DNA of 37,288 bases. It comes from a bacterium. Lineage in GTDB: Bacteria > UBP6 > UBA1177. The notes under the pieces were generated by a model. It was not told where the DNA came from, ran no database searches, and saw only the letters and a list, made by a program, of their open reading frames with translations. The stretch covers positions 1 through 37,288 of the forward strand of contig JAEESW010000024.1 of assembly GCA_016290135.1 (NCBI GenBank), in the 5' to 3' direction. Within the stretch, counting starts at the first letter, position 1; the number at the start of each line of letters is the position of its first letter. Of the stretch, positions 11,495-27,660 are shown in pieces. Position numbers and translations under genes: made by a program.

Positions 11495-11569
11495 CCGCGC
11501 GTTTGTTTTTTGTATTCATTTGATTTTAGACGTTTTTTGGAATTATTCACTATAAGAAGGAAGGAAAAA

Positions 11570-14500
11570 ATGATCAGAAAATCGTTGGTTTTGGCATTCA
11601 CACTTCTTGTTTCGCTCTCTGTCTTCGCGGCGGATCCGAAGATGTCGGTAGCACCGGCAACCGGAGAGGGCGATGCCGCAGAAATGGCGAAAAATCTTTC
11701 GAAAGAGTTCAAGATCCTTTACAAAACCGTTAAAGGTGCAAAGCTTTCCGATGTCGATTCGGCAAGCGCCGGCAAGTTCAGAAAATGTGCCGGAAAACTG
11801 AAATGCGCAAAGGACGAAGCTAAAAAAATCAAAAAATCGCAGTATCTCCTTTTCCCGGTCGTAAAGACAACGGATGAAGGATTTTCGGCGATCCTCTACA
11901 TCCTGGACAAGAACGGCAAGCTTGTTAAAAAGCAGAATGTCGATGTCGCAGGAGATACTGATGCTGAAGATTTCGCTTCGGAAGTCGCGGCAAAACTCAT
12001 GGACGCTATCGCAAACATGACCGAAGGCGGCGAAGAGGGCGATGACGAAGAGGAACCGGCTCCGAAGGAAGAGGCTCCGAAGTTGACCGACAGAGAGAAA
12101 AAGGAGGTCCTCCGCGCCGGTTTCAAGGCATACAAGGCAGGCAAGGGCAAAGAGGCATCCAATCTTTTCAGAAAGGCCGAGAATCTCTCTCTTGCCGATA
12201 CGGTAGACGAGATAGTCCAGGCTGTCGAAGACGCTAAGACCATGACCAAAAACGGTGATGCCTCAAAGGCTGTCGATACGGTGAACAAAGTCGAAAAGAA
12301 AGACTTCGACCTCAGGGAAAAAGGCTACAAAGAGCTCCAGTTCATAAAGGAGACCAACAAAAAGCGCAAATACAATGAGCCGGGAAAGGACGATTACGAC
12401 AAGGCGAGACGCACTTTCAAAAGTGTAAAGCAGGATATGAAGACGATCTCGGTATGGCGCGACGGCGAAATGAAAAAGCTCGAAGATTCGATGGCGGGAA
12501 AACTTGACGAACAGAAGAGACTCGCCGACAAATTCGAAGAAGACGAGAAAAAACAGGAAAAAGCCGAGAAAAAACAGGAAAAGGACCATCAGAAAAAGAT
12601 AGAAACTTTGAGGGAAAGCATCGAAAACCTCGACGCGACCTACCGCGACAGGCTCAAAAAGACCGACAAGGAGATCGAAAAGCTGAACAAGCAGCTCGAA
12701 GACGACAGACCGGCTGAAGAGATGTACAAAAAGGAGATCGAAGAGGAGATCGCCGCTATAGAAAGCAAGTACAAACAGGGAAGCAAGGATCTCAAGAAAC
12801 AGCTCCTTCAGGCAAAGAAACAGGCAAAGACCGACGGCGAAGCGGCCGAGAAAGAGTATAATGACAAGCTCCAGGCTCTCGAAAAATCGAATTCCGACCT
12901 TGAAAAGCAGGTAAAGAAGCTTACGAGGGAAGTCGAGAAGATGGAAAGCGAGTTCGAAGCGACCGAGCAGAAGGAAGCCGAGAAGTTCGACAAGAGCATA
13001 GCTGCGGCCGAAGCTCAGGATTCGAAAGACCTCGAGGCAGCCGAAAAGAAGGCGGACGAAGAGACCGAAAACCTCAACAAGCAGCTTGAGGATTACGACA
13101 AGAAAATTTCCGCTTACAGTGAAAAAGCGGACAAGATCGATTCTGAGATCAGTGATTTCAGCGACAAACAGGAAGAGAAACTGAGCAAAAATCAGGAGAA
13201 ATTCGACAAGAAACGCGAAGATGCAGAGCGCAAGTTCGAATCCGAGAGAGGAGCTGCTGAGGAAAAGGCCGAGCAGGCTTACGGAAAAGAGCAGGCTGCA
13301 CGCGCGAAGAAAGTCGAAACTCTTGAATCCCAGATGTTCGAGATTCAGGACAAGGTCGAAAACTATGAAAAGAATCCTCAGTGGCAGAAACTTAAAAAGG
13401 ATGCCGCAGCCGCTTCGAAAGATCTCGCGAAATTCGAGGACGGACACGACAAGTTCATAGAAAAAGAGACCGCTTCCGCTTCCAAAAACTACAAGGCGGA
13501 ACTGGCAAAGATAGATGCTGACCAGAAAAGTGCCAATGCCGATATCAAAAAAGAGACGGCGGCTTTCAAGACCAAGAAGGAATCCGAAAAGAAGGCTCTT
13601 GCCGCTGACATGAAGAAGGCTGAGCAGGAAAAATCGGCTTTCGAAAAGGACATCAAGAAAAAACAGGCGACTATCAACGCCAACAAAAACAAAAAGATAA
13701 AAGAGATCGAAGGCCGTGCTGCGAAACGCGAAGCTGAGAGAACTTCGAAAGCAAAACAGAGAAAGGCTGCCTACGACAAAAACGCGGCTGAAAAGAGAAA
13801 ACAGCTCGCAGCTCTCGAAAAACAGCTTGACGCGGCAAATGCAAATTCTGAAAAAACGAGAGACACACTTGCTCAGCAGCTTGAAAACAAAAAGGCGGCT
13901 TCCGAGAAGAAAGTGAACGACCTTGAGATCGCACTCGAGCAGAAGAAAGAAGCGAACGAAAACGCTATCGAAAAAGAGAAACAGGCGGTCTACGCAAAAT
14001 ATGAGAAAAAGGCCGAAACCGACAAAAAAGCGATAACTGCAAAGATCGCTCAGCTTGAGAACAGTTCAAAAACTTTCATCGCGCAGAGAGGAAAAGAGGA
14101 GGCGAAACTCCGCGCTGACCTTGAAGCGGCAGAGAAAAAGACCGACACGATGAAGGCCGGCTGGGAAAAGGACGCTGCGAAGAGAAAGGCTGCTTACGAG
14201 TCGAACCTCAAGGCTGCCGAAAAACGCGAAGCTGCAGCAAAGACCAAATACGAACAGTCGAAAAACAGCATCGAAAAGCAGTATAAGGCAAAGGTCGACG
14301 CTCTTATCAAAGAAAAATCGATCTCTTTCTCAACCGGAAGCGAGTTCAAGGAAGAGCGTGACAGAAGCTATGAATTCAGCGCATACACGAAGCAGTTGAA
14401 CGCAGTCAAGGCTGACGCGCTTGCAGCGCAGGGCATGGAAAAACTCAGGGACGAAGAGATCGCCGAGGCGAGAAAGTTCTTCTTCGACGCTCTCTACACC

Positions 14501-14725
14501 GATGCGAACAGCAAATCGGCCCAGAACGGTCTCGCTGAGATCGAAAAGACAGCGGCGGCAATGTTTGACAGAGCTTATGCCGATGTTCAGGCCGGTGACA
14601 TCAGTTCGGCTAAGAAAGTCCTTATCAAACTTAGAAAGGAACTCAGCCCGAAGAGCGCTTACTATCTCAGAGTCCTCGCTCTTATCGAAGACACGAAAGA
14701 GGGCGGAGATTCTTCCGAGGATTAA
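11570..14725 (+). CDS. Large secreted coiled-coil protein
   Basis: 1051 residues from the ATG at 11570 (AAGGAAGG before it); an upstream in-frame start at 11510 would spoil the signal peptide. Residues 1-20 (MIRKSLVLAFTLLVSLSVFA) are a clean Sec signal. Residues about 25-150 form a small domain with CKAKDE-like Cys pair and alternating strands (SQYLLFPVVKTTDEGFSAILYILD) that resembles stress- or lipoprotein-associated domains, but weakly. An acidic linker (GGEEGDDEEEPAPKEE) follows, then roughly 700 residues of almost uninterrupted Glu/Lys/Ala coiled coil, and a last 130 residues with TPR-like helices. The cell site should be periplasm or outer surface. A structural, spacer or stalk role is inference. 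It has its own promoter; the transporter gene follows 52 bases later. Confidence 0.8.
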   Translation: MIRKSLVLAFTLLVSLSVFAADPKMSVAPATGEGDAAEMAKNLSKEFKILYKTVKGAKLSDVDSASAGKFRKCAGKLKCAKDEAKKIKKSQYLLFPVVKTTDEGFSAILYILDKNGKLVKKQNVDVAGDTDAEDFASEVAAKLMDAIANMTEGGEEGDDEEEPAPKEEAPKLTDREKKEVLRAGFKAYKAGKGKEASNLFRKAENLSLADTVDEIVQAVEDAKTMTKNGDASKAVDTVNKVEKKDFDLREKGYKELQFIKETNKKRKYNEPGKDDYDKARRTFKSVKQDMKTISVWRDGEMKKLEDSMAGKLDEQKRLADKFEEDEKKQEKAEKKQEKDHQKKIETLRESIENLDATYRDRLKKTDKEIEKLNKQLEDDRPAEEMYKKEIEEEIAAIESKYKQGSKDLKKQLLQAKKQAKTDGEAAEKEYNDKLQALEKSNSDLEKQVKKLTREVEKMESEFEATEQKEAEKFDKSIAAAEAQDSKDLEAAEKKADEETENLNKQLEDYDKKISAYSEKADKIDSEISDFSDKQEEKLSKNQEKFDKKREDAERKFESERGAAEEKAEQAYGKEQAARAKKVETLESQMFEIQDKVENYEKNPQWQKLKKDAAAASKDLAKFEDGHDKFIEKETASASKNYKAELAKIDADQKSANADIKKETAAFKTKKESEKKALAADMKKAEQEKSAFEKDIKKKQATINANKNKKIKEIEGRAAKREAERTSKAKQRKAAYDKNAAEKRKQLAALEKQLDAANANSEKTRDTLAQQLENKKAASEKKVNDLEIALEQKKEANENAIEKEKQAVYAKYEKKAETDKKAITAKIAQLENSSKTFIAQRGKEEAKLRADLEAAEKKTDTMKAGWEKDAAKRKAAYESNLKAAEKREAAAKTKYEQSKNSIEKQYKAKVDALIKEKSISFSTGSEFKEERDRSYEFSAYTKQLNAVKADALAAQGMEKLRDEEIAEARKFFFDALYTDANSKSAQNGLAEIEKTAAAMFDRAYADVQAGDISSAKKVLIKLRKELSPKSAYYLRVLALIEDTKEGGDSSED

Positions 14726-23097: not shown

Positions 23098-23133
23098 AAC
23101 AATAGAATTTTTTTGTTTTTTGCGGGTAAGTTT

Positions 23134-25044
23134 ATGGAAGAAAATAGCACTACTTATAAGTTACCGAGATTATTCGGAAAATATTATCTTCTTGAATTGA
23201 TAAATGTCGGAGGTATGGCCGAAGTCTTCAAAGCGAAGATGTTCGGAGTAGAGGGTTTCGAGAAGATCGTCGCGATAAAAAGGATCCTTCCTGAAGTCGC
23301 AGAGGACGCTGAATTTATAAAAATGTTCGTCGATGAGGCGAAGATCGCGGTAAAACTCCAGCATCCCAATGTCGTTCAGATATTCGAGCTCGGAAAGATC
23401 GAAGATTCTTATTTCATCGCGATGGAGCTTATCAACGGCAAAGATCTCAAGACTATCAGGAAAAGGCTGAAAAGGGTCGATCTGCTGATGCCGGTCGAAC
23501 AGAGCGCATACATCATTTCGCAGGTTTGCGACGGTTTGGACTATGCGCACCGCAAGACGGACGAGAAGATGAATCCTCTCAATATCGTCCACCGCGACAT
23601 TTCACCTCAGAACATGATCGTTTCTTATGAAGGAACGGTAAAACTCATAGATTTCGGTATCGCTAAAGCGAAGAGCAAATCAACGAAGACTCAGGTCGGA
23701 ATGCTGAAAGGAAAGTTCAGCTATATGTCGCCCGAACAGGTGAGCGGCCAGCCGATAGACAGACGAAGCGACATTTTCTCGCTCGGTGTCGTTTTCTTTG
23801 AAATGCTCACGGGAAAACGTCTTTTCCTCGGCAAGAACGATGTCGAAACGCTTGAAAAGATCAGAAAAGCGGAAGTCCTGCCTCCCAGCGTTTTCAACAG
23901 CGCGGTGCCGCCGGAACTCGACAGGATAGTCCTGAAGGCCCTTGCAAAAGACAGGGAAGACCGTTACCAGTGGGCAAGTGAATTTTCGGAAGACCTTAAA
24001 AAATTCAGTTATTCGAGCGGAAAAAGTTTCTCCCGTCAGGATATGATGAACTTCATGAGCGAGTTCTTCGCAGACGAGCTTGAGGAAGAGACCGCCAAAC
24101 TCGAGGAATATCACAAAATCAAAAAACCTGCCGAGATGCCGCTCCGCGAGGCGACGCAGCTCGACCGCAGGGATGCGACCTCGGTCGATGACGAAAAATC
24201 GGTCATCCACACAGCTTCTTCATCGAAAAAGCTGGCTCTGCTCTTTGCGGCAGTCGTTGTCGCCCTCGGTTTTGTGATCTCGCTTTTCGTTGTGATGAGC
24301 GGGAATAAAAAGGAAAAAACTTCGCTTATCGTTGATTCTAACGAGAAAAAAACGATAGTTGTCGTAGACGAGAACACGATGTACCAGAAGCGGTGCGAAA
24401 CTCCGTGCGTGATCGACGGTCTTCTTGCCGGTCAGCATGAGATCTCGTTTTCGAAGAACGGTTTCGTCGATGTGAAGGAGAGTATTTTTCTGAGCAAAGG
24501 CGACAATGTTGAAAAGTTCGTCAAAATGTACCGCATCGGTGAGCAGAAGACTATGATCACAGTGAAGTCTGATCCCGACGGCGCAACTCTTTACATCAAC
24601 GACAAAAAGGTGCAGGCTGCTACACCAACGATCGTAAACGATATTCCGGTAGGTCTTGACATCGTAGTCAGAGTCGAAAAGCACGGATACTTCCCGTACG
24701 AAGAGAATATCGGCAAAGTGCCTGCAAACATGAACAAGGAAGTGAGCGTGATCCTTAAACCCAAAAATTCATCCGCGCAGTCAAAATCGAAAAAATCGGA
24801 TAAATCGTCAAAGTCATCGGTTGTTGAATCGGGCGATCCGGCATTCCTCACGATAAACAGCATGCCGTGGGCGAATATCTACATTGACGGCAAACTTATC
24901 GGTTCCACGCCGATATCAAAGCACAAACTTCCGGCAGGAAGTTACAAGATCCAGTTCAAAAACCCGAAGTCGAAAATCGACAAAACCATTCCTGTCGAAC
25001 TTAAACCAGGTGAAACAAAAAGACTGATCGAAAAATTCGACTGA
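23134..25044 (+). CDS. Ser/Thr protein kinase with PEGA domains
   Basis: 636 residues. Kinase domain (about 16-292): glycine loop VGGMAEVF, Lys49 in VAIKR, helix-C Glu68, HRDISPQN (153-160) with catalytic Asp155, DFGIAK (173-178), MSPEQVSG activation-segment end. All key residues are present, so it should be active. A juxtamembrane region follows, then one membrane helix (about 367-388), then about 245 periplasmic residues with PEGA-type repeats: SDPDGATLYINDKKV and SMPWANIYIDGKLIGSTP are clear, and an earlier degenerate copy ends near residue 475. The SKSKKSDKSSKSS linker separates the last. This Pkn/Hanks-type layout is common in myxobacteria-like bacteria; the PEGA part may sense envelope state. 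It has its own promoter. Confidence 0.93.
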   Translation: MEENSTTYKLPRLFGKYYLLELINVGGMAEVFKAKMFGVEGFEKIVAIKRILPEVAEDAEFIKMFVDEAKIAVKLQHPNVVQIFELGKIEDSYFIAMELINGKDLKTIRKRLKRVDLLMPVEQSAYIISQVCDGLDYAHRKTDEKMNPLNIVHRDISPQNMIVSYEGTVKLIDFGIAKAKSKSTKTQVGMLKGKFSYMSPEQVSGQPIDRRSDIFSLGVVFFEMLTGKRLFLGKNDVETLEKIRKAEVLPPSVFNSAVPPELDRIVLKALAKDREDRYQWASEFSEDLKKFSYSSGKSFSRQDMMNFMSEFFADELEEETAKLEEYHKIKKPAEMPLREATQLDRRDATSVDDEKSVIHTASSSKKLALLFAAVVVALGFVISLFVVMSGNKKEKTSLIVDSNEKKTIVVVDENTMYQKRCETPCVIDGLLAGQHEISFSKNGFVDVKESIFLSKGDNVEKFVKMYRIGEQKTMITVKSDPDGATLYINDKKVQAATPTIVNDIPVGLDIVVRVEKHGYFPYEENIGKVPANMNKEVSVILKPKNSSAQSKSKKSDKSSKSSVVESGDPAFLTINSMPWANIYIDGKLIGSTPISKHKLPAGSYKIQFKNPKSKIDKTIPVELKPGETKRLIEKFD

Positions 25045-25083
25045 TTTTCCGCTTTTTTCGCATAAATCGACCAACATTTTTTG

Positions 25084-25111
25084 TTGTGAAGCAGGGATAA
25101 ATGTATATAAT
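25084..25111 (+). promoter_or_regulatory. Promoter of the serpin gene
   Basis: TTGTGA (25084-25089), 16-base spacer, perfect TATAAT (25106-25111), 43 bases before the ATG at 25155. Confidence 0.6.
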
Positions 25112-25154
25112 TATTCCGCTTAATGCTCGTACTAAATGTTTTTGGAGGTTCTAC

Positions 25155-26558
25155 ATGACTAAAAAATCATTATTGACTCTTGTTTGGGCAATTTTTCTTG
25201 TTTTAATGCTTGCTGCCTGCGGAAACGACAAAAAAGAAGAATCTGAAATCACCGACACCGATAACACGGACACAGTTACAGATACTGCCGATAGTTGTGA
25301 TACGGAAACTTCCCCGGATGAAGACAACGCAGACTCAACCGATAGCTGCGATACTGAAACGGTCACGGATGATGATAATACCGATGCTGGTTGGGAAACT
25401 AAATATCAGAAGGCTGATGAAAGCGCGGAAAAGGTTTCCGAAGATGTCGTAAAGGCAAACAACAGGTTCGGGATGAAGATTTTCAGCCGCTTGGCAAAGG
25501 AAGAAGGGGCTAAGAACATAATGATTTCACCGCTTTCAATCTCGATTGCGATGGCCATGACCGCCAACGGCGCGGTTGATGAGGCTCTTTCCGAAATGAA
25601 GGAAGTGCTCGGATTCGGCAACATGAATATGCCGGATGTCAACGAACAGTTCGAGCAGCTTATCGCAAGTCTTGTTGAAGCTGACAAATATATGACACTT
25701 GAAATCGCCGATTCACTCTGGCTGGATGAGCGGTTTGCTCCTGACGTAAAGGATGATTTCATTTCCGTCCTTGAGGATTACTACAGCGCGGCTCTTTTCA
25801 CGGAAGACTTTGCAGACCCGGCAACGGCTGATAAAATCAACTCCTGGGTATCGGAAAAGACTCACGAAAAAATAGGCAAAATAATTGGGGAAATAGGCGC
25901 AAACACCGTTATGTACATTATCAACGCCGTCTATTTCAAAGCTGGATGGACACATCCTTTTGCAAAAGGTTTAACTTATAGTCAAAAATTTCAGCTTTCA
26001 GACGGCAATATCAGGGAAGCTGATTTGATGCATGCGGGAGGAGACACTTATACCTTCAAAATTGTTAAAGAAAACTATTCTGTCGTAAGAATTCCGTACG
26101 GCAGAGGTGTTTTTGCATTCTACGCAATAGTGCCTTCCGGCAATGTCGATGATTTTATCGACAAGATTGCTCAAGACGATATCAATTCCTGTTTTGAAAG
26201 TCTGCGCGAATCCTTTGATTTCAGTCTGGGACTTCCGAAATTCAGATTTGCTTACGAAAAATCTCTGAAAGACACCTTTAAAACACTCGGAATGGAGCGT
26301 ATATTTGCAGGAGGACTGGAGAATATATCAAGTAATGTCGAAAATCTGCATATCAGCAATATTTTCCACAAGACTTTTATCGAGGTCGATGAAGAAGGAA
26401 CAGAGGCTGCCGCTGTCACAGCTGATTCCGCTGATACAGGAGAAGACTATACTCCACCCAGCGTCTTTGCCGATCGTCCGTTTGTTTTCGTAATCCGCGA
26501 CGAAAGAACTGGATCGATTCTTTTTGTCGGCAAAGTCGAAGATCCGACTGCTGAATAA
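25155..26558 (+). CDS. Lipoprotein serpin (protease inhibitor)
   Basis: 467 residues from the ATG at 25155 (TTGGAGG before it). The signal peptide ends in the lipobox LAAC (Cys22); an acidic Asp/Thr/Glu spacer of about 60 residues follows, then a full serpin fold (about 95-463). Serpin landmarks: NIMISPLSISIAMAMTANGA, NAVYFKAGWTHPF, LPKFRFAYEKSL, and the hinge EEGTEAAAVTA (413-423), which keeps the small residues needed for loop insertion, so it is predicted to be inhibitory. ADRPFVFVIRDERTGSILFVGKV is the classic end. The reactive bond lies in ADTGEDYTPP: counting from the hinge puts P1 at Gly429, counting back from the RPF motif puts it at Asp431. The target protease is unknown; an envelope-anchored defence against host or competitor proteases is inference. 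Confidence 0.94.
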   Translation: MTKKSLLTLVWAIFLVLMLAACGNDKKEESEITDTDNTDTVTDTADSCDTETSPDEDNADSTDSCDTETVTDDDNTDAGWETKYQKADESAEKVSEDVVKANNRFGMKIFSRLAKEEGAKNIMISPLSISIAMAMTANGAVDEALSEMKEVLGFGNMNMPDVNEQFEQLIASLVEADKYMTLEIADSLWLDERFAPDVKDDFISVLEDYYSAALFTEDFADPATADKINSWVSEKTHEKIGKIIGEIGANTVMYIINAVYFKAGWTHPFAKGLTYSQKFQLSDGNIREADLMHAGGDTYTFKIVKENYSVVRIPYGRGVFAFYAIVPSGNVDDFIDKIAQDDINSCFESLRESFDFSLGLPKFRFAYEKSLKDTFKTLGMERIFAGGLENISSNVENLHISNIFHKTFIEVDEEGTEAAAVTADSADTGEDYTPPSVFADRPFVFVIRDERTGSILFVGKVEDPTAE

Positions 26559-26628: not shown

Positions 26629-27660
26629 TTAGTAAACGAATTTGTCGCGTCTGCCCTGGACCTGATAGTGTTCAACAGCCGCGTTGTGCTCTTTGAGCGT
26701 TTTTGAGAAATAGTGGTAGCCTTTTCCTGTCGCGACGAAGTAGAGATAGTTCGTTTTGTCGGGATGGAGAACGCTTTTTATCGCGCCGTCGCCAGGGAAG
26801 CAGAGGGGAGTTGCGGGAAATCCGTAGCGTGTGTAAGTGTTCCACGGATGATCTGTCATCAGGTCTTTTTTGGTGATGTTTCCGTTGAATTTTGGCAGAA
26901 GGCCGTATATTACAGAAGGGTCTGTCTGCATTTTCATTCCGATCTTCTTCCTGTTGAGGAAAACTGATGCGATTTTGGGCTGTTCGTCCTTTGCGCCGGT
27001 CTCTTTTTCAACGATCGATGCCAGTTTTAAGAGATCGTAAACATCCATCTCCGATCTTTCGATTTCGGCTTGATATTTCGCCAGAGTCGCCTTCATCTGC
27101 TCAGCCATTTTCTTCATGACGGCGATGATGTCGCTCCCTCTCGGAAAGCTGTAAGTCGAGGGGAAAAGCAGCCCTTCGCAGCTTGTCTTGTTCTTTGCGC
27201 CGATGGATCCGAGGAAGTTCCTGTCGTGGCAGACTTCAAGGAATCTGTCGCTTCCGTTCATCCATTCCAGAGTTTTGAAAACAGCTGCGGCATCGTATTT
27301 GTTGTAACCTTCAGGAATTGTGAAAGAGTAGAGTTTCACTTTGCCGCTCATTATTCTTTTTGCAGCCTCTTCAGGTGTCGTTTCGCCCGAAAATTCGAAT
27401 TCGCCCGTTTTCAGCGATTTTCCGAAATCTTTCTCTTTGATCATCCACATGAACTGTTTTGCGTCTGTGATGACTTTTGCCTCGGAAAGTTTTCTTGCCG
27501 CGGTGTTCCAGGTGTTCCCTTTTTCGATGACTACAGTTGTTCCGGCGGGGACGTCGACAGCCGTCTCTTTGAAAGACTGGTAACCGCTGTAGACCGAATA
27601 ACATTTGAAAAATACAATTGCAACCGCGATCAGAAAAACCGCAAGTATGATCTTTTTCAT
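26629..27660 (-). CDS. mltG: Endolytic murein transglycosylase MltG
   Basis: 343 residues, with one N-terminal membrane helix (about 3-19). It cuts nascent glycan strands at the inner membrane and so sets glycan length. Seen: the YceG/MltG fold with an N-terminal LysM-like region, LASIVEKETG with catalytic Glu218 (same number as in E. coli), MQTDPSVIYG, and WNTYTRYGFPATPLCFPGDGAIKSVLHP, where the E. coli family has PxPIxNPG. It is the last gene of the panC-folK-unknown-der-mltG operon, 2 bases after der. Confidence 0.93.
   Translation of the reverse strand: MKKIILAVFLIAVAIVFFKCYSVYSGYQSFKETAVDVPAGTTVVIEKGNTWNTAARKLSEAKVITDAKQFMWMIKEKDFGKSLKTGEFEFSGETTPEEAAKRIMSGKVKLYSFTIPEGYNKYDAAAVFKTLEWMNGSDRFLEVCHDRNFLGSIGAKNKTSCEGLLFPSTYSFPRGSDIIAVMKKMAEQMKATLAKYQAEIERSEMDVYDLLKLASIVEKETGAKDEQPKIASVFLNRKKIGMKMQTDPSVIYGLLPKFNGNITKKDLMTDHPWNTYTRYGFPATPLCFPGDGAIKSVLHPDKTNYLYFVATGKGYHYFSKTLKEHNAAVEHYQVQGRRDKFVY

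Follow-up and report, generated by a model that had tools for sequence, protein, structure and literature searches.

A predicted lipoprotein serpin of genus UBA1177 (UBP6) with a variable reactive loop and probable recent exchange between species

The window, the whole stretch of 37,288 nucleotides that was analyzed, carries on its forward strand a lipoprotein serpin gene (25155–26558, +), recognized from its translation and from profile and PDB sequence matches, which encodes 467 aa without an internal stop. The mechanically called ORF begins farther 5′, at 25101. We preferred the ATG at 25155 as start because a GGAGG sequence, the likely ribosome-binding site (25144–25148, +), lies 6 nt before it. 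The translation begins with a leader (25155–25220, +) made up of a signal peptide and the lipobox LAAC (residues 19–22), Cys22 being the predicted lipidated residue; this leader also occurs on other payloads. It is followed by an acidic spacer rich in D, T and E (about residues 23–79; 25221–25391, +) which includes two DSCDTET motifs, and which is longer by one 17-residue unit in the orthologue L054. A lipoprotein signal and a spacer of about 60 residues, as put forward in the preliminary description, were hence both recovered, the spacer measuring about 57 residues. The serpin domain comprises residues 101–464 (25455–26546, +; PF00079 match).

On its sequence, the protein is a full-length member of the serpin family (PF00079, MEROPS I4). 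The profile PF00079 matched it over positions 2–370 of 370 with 338 bits (cut-off 27; E 9.2e-101), and a PDB sequence search gave 201 distinct chains at E ≤ 1e-3, the best of them miropin of Tannerella forsythia (5ncs, E 7.6e-57), followed by conserpin and then tengpin; the earlier assignment as a bacterial serpin is thereby confirmed. The serpin fold is predicted from sequence homology; an AlphaFold model obtained from a shallow alignment of six sequences (the window protein and L054–L058) had a mean pLDDT of 35.9. The orthologues L054 and L055 are 94 and 96% identical to the window serpin. Because of these orthologues, of the presence of serpins in 26 of the 28 genomes of the phylum, and of a body dN/dS of 0.13–0.33 in nine pairs of the window's clade, we do not take the ORF for a chance one.

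Upstream of the gene, a 79-nt segment defined by alignment (25065–25143, +) is present in the window and in genome G001 and missing from genomes G011 and G007 of the same genus; its second half is similar to the upstream region of the paralogue L043. A promoter scan returned a weak promoter-like sequence, TTGTGA-16-TATAAT (10 of 12), at 25084–25111 (+); the five promoter-like sites of the whole upstream region, compared with 2.8 ± 1.5 in shuffles, are not convincing. No terminator was found in a scan of the serpin gene region. The left neighbour is a Ser/Thr kinase with PEGA domains (23113–25044, +), at whose 3′ side lies the recurrent serpin slot, and the right neighbour is a convergent mltG/YceG gene (26629–27660, −), which directly adjoins the kinase in 7 of the 15 genomes of the genus. 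A 1071-aa ORF lies elsewhere in the window, at 11510–14725.

The reactive center loop together with its hinge runs from P17 (Glu413) to P10′ (Arg441) at 26391–26477 (+), as counted on the translation. The hinge EEGTEAAAVTA (residues 413–423) is intact and of the inhibitory type, in agreement with the preliminary description, and ADTGEDYTPP follows it directly on the C-terminal side. Loop alignment and the human spacing rule place P3–P1 on Asp427-Thr428-Gly429 (DTG↓E, the arrow standing for the P1–P1′ bond), with P1 at Gly429 (26439–26441, +), Glu430 as P1′ and Asp431 (26445–26447, +) as P2′. P15–P1 is then 15 residues long and the primed side 12. Among the human inhibitory serpins tabulated in PMC6379291 (n = 30), P15–P1 has 15 residues in 28 and 14 in 2, and the primed side has 9–14; with Gly429 as P1, the primed side is therefore within the human range, and extra residues are normally found on that side. 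DTG occupies P3–P1 in all seven close homologues with a perfect hinge, three of which are near-identical orthologues. Since DTG is the most frequent motif in the spacers as well, its conservation at P3–P1 may be compositional.

It had previously been suggested, on one alignment, that P1 is Asp, and the protein could accordingly be an inhibitor of Asp-specific proteases, comparable to CrmA or to a granzyme B inhibitor, with Asp431 as P1. Such an alignment does exist: when positions are counted back from the conserved PF on the C-terminal side, P1 is Asp in five of seven members of the window's clade. The same count gives Gly in the two others, and the close orthologues L019 and L034 carry GGD, so that only one acidic residue is kept. 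Moreover, P1 at Asp431 needs a P15–P1 length of 17, which occurs in none of the 30 human inhibitory serpins of the table, and one or two residues added to a serpin loop destabilize the complex up to a million-fold (PMC6379291). With 17 residues against the 14–15 of human serpins, and with this destabilization, Asp is unlikely as P1, and we consider inhibition of Asp-specific proteases very improbable. The acidic-P1 class (CrmA, SERPINB9 type) was also tried as a class assignment and rejected, as canonical spacing puts Gly429, not an acid, at P1. Miropin reportedly uses non-canonical reactive bonds, to judge by the title of a paper in reference lists. The siropins are cut at P3–P2 and P6–P5 and not at P1–P1′ (PMC5127057), hence the canonical bond of the window serpin may not be the one used; both cases count in favor of Asp431. 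The bond used would most likely lie at or beside Gly429 (D-T-G↓E).

By parity, P6 should face inward upon loop insertion, and human SERPINB11 is a non-inhibitory serpin. In the window serpin P6 is Asp424, a residue that among the rows of the human table SERPINB11 alone has there, and Asp at this position may hinder insertion. Core copies have loops of canonical length (for instance VGEN↓AMP), and in the seven rows of the window's clade with a perfect hinge the loop is two or three residues longer, two in the case considered here. The hinge P15–P9 is identical in seven of the nine members of the clade and degenerate in two sister copies, L043 (G011; GTESAGYT) and L045 (G001; GAESGAYA), which are possibly turning non-inhibitory. 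Asp at P6, the longer loop, the degraded sister hinges, and a loop dN/dS that in some pairs is close to 1, as lost constraint would allow, would all suit a non-inhibitory or mainly substrate-type serpin, whose cut loop would insert too slowly or whose domain would now serve for binding or structure. Against this stand the hinge P15–P9 without any difference in seven of seven members, the low dN/dS of the body, and the recent spread of the intact gene among species, and we regard such a serpin as unlikely.

UBP6, alias Candidatus Asafiota, is known from a sulphidic cave, freshwater, anaerobic sludge, hypersaline lake sediment and rumen (PMC11382960), and in one survey the rumen genomes that the available text assigns to it all belong to the genus UBA1177 (PMC7820578), from which we infer that the genus is rumen-type. 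Of the 28 genomes searched from the phylum, 26 have a serpin, as do all 25 of the order, one of which has only a fragment; the same search in genomes of other phyla found a serpin in 2 of 13. One of these other-phylum genomes, G033, had four serpin matches (at loci L006, L032 and L063), one of which is a short fragment. The idea that bacterial serpins are sporadic does not hold for this lineage. The contact with animals that had been suggested along with it is plausible solely through the rumen occurrence of the genus (PMC7820578), and none of the results points to a host protease. Mimicry of a host or acquisition from animals has little in its favor: the nearest PDB relative is bacterial, and the available text of Spence et al. 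offers no phylogenetic support. A scan of viral contigs with the serpin alignment returned 94 matching stretches, none of which was a relative, and therefore no link to phages.

The genome of the window has four serpins with four different loops, namely the window copy, a tandem pair beside cysS and one copy on a short contig. The tandem pair (L065, 7939–10849 of contig C57) lies between cysS and a histidine kinase gene and has the loops VGEN↓AMP and YSDK↓LSA; its cysS neighbourhood recurs in several genomes of the genus. Over the whole set, 82 ORF matches corresponded to 64 distinct serpins, of which 58 entered the loop table and the tree. Of the six set aside, L031 and L067 are fragments, L029 and L030 are distant copies, and the remaining two are duplicates truncated at the locus ends; of the partial serpins at contig ends only a part was retrieved. 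The tree contains a core clade, present in 12 of the 15 genomes of the genus (support 94), and the clade of the window serpin, here named for its MTKK leader, with nine rows from 5 of the 15 genomes (support 99).

To compare loops, the mean pairwise difference in P8–P6′ was divided by that of the body and ranked against sliding windows. The ratio is 2.66 in the window's clade (nine rows, rank 2 of 360) and 2.48 when seven rows are used (rank 17 of 357), a set in which 16 windows outside or overlapping the loop match or exceed its variability. The core clade has 0.79 (rank 212 of 368), and for core copies from other genera and families values of 0.98 and 1.20 were obtained; the tandem and FPGF clades stand at 1.92 and 1.88, respectively. 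The loop is preserved among core copies and varies in the window's accessory clade. Loop dN/dS in the nine pairs of the window's clade is 1.04, 0.91 and 1.00 in three, 0.17–0.40 in five, and one pair is unchanged. Nei–Gojobori counts over 19 pairs did not show positive selection on the loop, the ratio ranging from 0 to 1.04 and never being clearly above 1. Change in the accessory baits is rapid, and these counts fit relaxed constraint as well as diversification.

These distributions also bear on whether the serpin might be a housekeeping guard that shields the cell's periplasm and envelope from proteases it has itself secreted, rather than from an outside enemy. Such roles have been proposed by Spence et al. 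for ancestral-like prokaryotic serpins (PMC8233489), and a core serpin that is universal in the order and has a conserved loop is what a guard of this kind would look like. The proposal fits the core copy better than the accessory one, whose distribution is patchy (5 of 15 genomes), whose loop varies and which seems to have been exchanged recently, and for the window serpin we give it a low probability.

The slot between the PEGA-domain kinase and mltG holds a serpin in 3 of the 15 genomes of the genus (the window, G001 and G011). In seven it is empty, kinase and mltG adjoining with about 10–70 nt between aligned ends. G007 has another lipoprotein there and G014 has other genes between kinase and mltG, which in G013 are found on separate contigs; behind the kinase, G005 carries two serpins and G010 three, all from other clades. 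Synonymous divergence of the serpin in the three pairs formed by the window, G001 and G011 is 0.064, 0.065 and 0.026, whereas in the same pairs it is 0.90–1.45 for the kinase, 0.44–0.83 for mltG and 0.46–0.83 for engA. Between G001 and G011 the exchanged stretch extends into mltG, where 201 of 941 windows reach 88/89 or better. The dS of the core serpin is 0.54 between G000 and G001 and ranges from 0.19 to 0.95 over 11 genomes, to be compared with 0.74–1.56 for mltG over 14 genomes; some core copies (G009, G007) may have been exchanged too. Because the serpin dS of 0.026–0.065 is far below that of the neighbours (0.44–1.45), and because empty sites exist, the gene appears to be recent at this site, and its spread between species by recombination at one site is the best explanation.

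The leader and the payload also mix. In G007 the gene in the slot encodes a 267-aa lipoprotein whose body is an unrelated domain without a Pfam match, and its leader plus 20 nt upstream is identical to that of the G011 serpin at 89 of 89 nt. The flanks of these two genomes are 84.7% (kinase) and 83.3% (mltG) identical, and none of 1488 windows of the same length reaches 88/89. Conversely, the serpins L049 (G011) and L046 (G008) are 89.4% identical over 1371 nt starting from within the spacer, and their leaders cannot be aligned. A search with the leader DNA gave 27 matches in 10 of the 15 genomes. The 24 leader genes analyzed carry a serpin (10), CTIK (7), CTIK plus VGEC (4), VGEC (2) or another domain (1), CTIK and VGEC being lipoprotein domains named here; one leader is thus found with interchangeable C-terminal domains, in five payload arrangements and at the same slot in G007 and G011. 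L092 (no gene read), L107 (a 31-nt match), L109 (same place as L097) and second matches inside L097, L105 and L109 were left out, and L100 was counted as a serpin on its search match and not on a gene reading. The nearest leader belonged to another payload in 16 of the 24 genes (15 depending on ties), compared with 15.2 ± 2.7 in label shuffles, so a payload cannot be predicted from its leader. The comparison is small and its nearest neighbours are noisy, and it is the two clear cases (G007/G011 and L049/L046) that carry the argument.

CTIK and VGEC, exemplified by L004 (2258–3133, −), L079 (667–1470, +) and L101 (1518–2678, +), often lie beside serpins or are fused to one another. A protein search with P0003 gave 11–42 matches per genome of the genus, many of them to leader and spacer alone. 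Neither domain matched a Pfam family at the gathering score, and the NCBIfam search of both payloads returned only leader-driven matches below threshold. In a PDB search P0003 had one weak match to its leader (E 0.021) and L101 none.

The mixture of leaders and payloads might instead go back to one abundant lipoprotein leader inherited long ago from a common ancestor, and not to recent recombination. Signal peptides are short and constrained, a search of the window's spacer DNA found no repeat family that could act as recombination joint, and the 24-gene comparison has the limits just given. An identity of 89/89 nt at one slot between flanks of 84.7 and 83.3%, and 89.4% identity over 1371 nt behind unalignable leaders, argue the other way, and we think common descent alone quite unlikely. 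If recombination is accepted, an exchangeable system of envelope display can be sketched, in which a common leader and acidic spacer would carry payloads (serpins with different baits, CTIK, VGEC and at least one more) recombined at the same slots between species. The bait of the core serpin would be fixed and the accessory baits would shift, as a shared stock against the proteases of rumen neighbours, in the manner of polymorphic toxins but defensive. We advance this as a tentative and rather speculative proposal.

With its signal peptide, its lipobox Cys and an LspA homologue in the genome (E 2.4e-33), the protein has the predicted attributes of a bacterial lipoprotein. Homologues of Omp85 and LolA are also present; the LolA model also matches two archaea among the controls and is the weakest of the three. 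Together they make an outer membrane and lipoprotein processing likely, and the protein is probably fixed to the outer envelope. The lipobox Cys would be lipidated and the acidic spacer would keep the serpin domain off the membrane. A protease cutting the exposed loop would then be caught by insertion of the loop into sheet A (suicide inhibition). The targets would be serine, perhaps cysteine, proteases, and the Gly429 bond would be a better match for enzymes accepting small P1 residues, such as elastase- or subtilisin-like ones, than for Asp-specific proteases. Given the rumen-type lineage, the proteases warded off would probably come from other microbes or from plant material. The core copy would keep its bait, accessory copies such as that of the window would carry altered baits, and leader and spacer would be interchangeable with those of lipoproteins bearing other payloads. 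An envelope-anchored inhibitory serpin with a small P1, belonging to a recombining lipoprotein family, is the reading that we favor, at about an even chance.

Several known systems share parts of this arrangement. Miropin, the closest solved structure by sequence, has the same EEGTEAAAVTA hinge and is envelope-associated with suggested surface exposure (PMC4604654), resembling the anchor predicted here, but its loop differs after P7 and has no DTG. It comes from a periodontal host and its targets include plasmin (PMC8233489); the available descriptions of miropin mention neither a family of acidic D/T spacers nor an exchange of leaders. Siropins, the serpin of Bifidobacterium longum and tengpin (group T of Spence et al.) are likewise bacterial serpins with an inhibitory-type hinge, some from gut species, and the two paralogous siropins of E. 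siraeum have dissimilar loops (48% loop identity; PMC5127057). Dockerin serpins of the Clostridium thermocellum and Ruminococcus flavefaciens cellulosomes are held at the surface of fibre degraders, one from the rumen (PMC3573020, PMC2721979), but by dockerin–cohesin binding, whereas the window serpin would be held by a lipid anchor. The lipobox proteins APD1 and APD2 of Amoebophilus and polymorphic toxins (Zhang et al. 2012, PMC3482391) combine a conserved signal peptide/lipobox front with highly variable C-terminal domains. Their payloads are toxins or effectors, whereas here they are a protease inhibitor and two domains without a Pfam match.

Membrane-anchored prokaryotic serpins are a class already known (PMC8233489), and so, separately and as far as the cited texts go, are surface serpins of the rumen and lipobox fronts with variable effectors. 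UBP6 is not among the phyla named in the available text of Spence et al. (PMC8233489), and a search of the open-access literature, judged from its listing, returned nothing joining serpins with UBA1177, Asafiota or UBP6. That literature apparently contains no description of a serpin family that runs through a lineage, some members with fixed and others with varying baits, on an interchangeable lipoprotein leader. Should the exchange of leaders and payloads hold, it would constitute a natural modular lipoprotein display built on protease defence and not on attack. The roles of bacterial serpins have been called enigmatic by Spence et al. (PMC8233489); an order in which every sampled genome has a serpin, the core bait being conserved and the accessory ones diversified, and in which one accessory copy seems to have been transferred recently, provides a case in which these roles can be tested.
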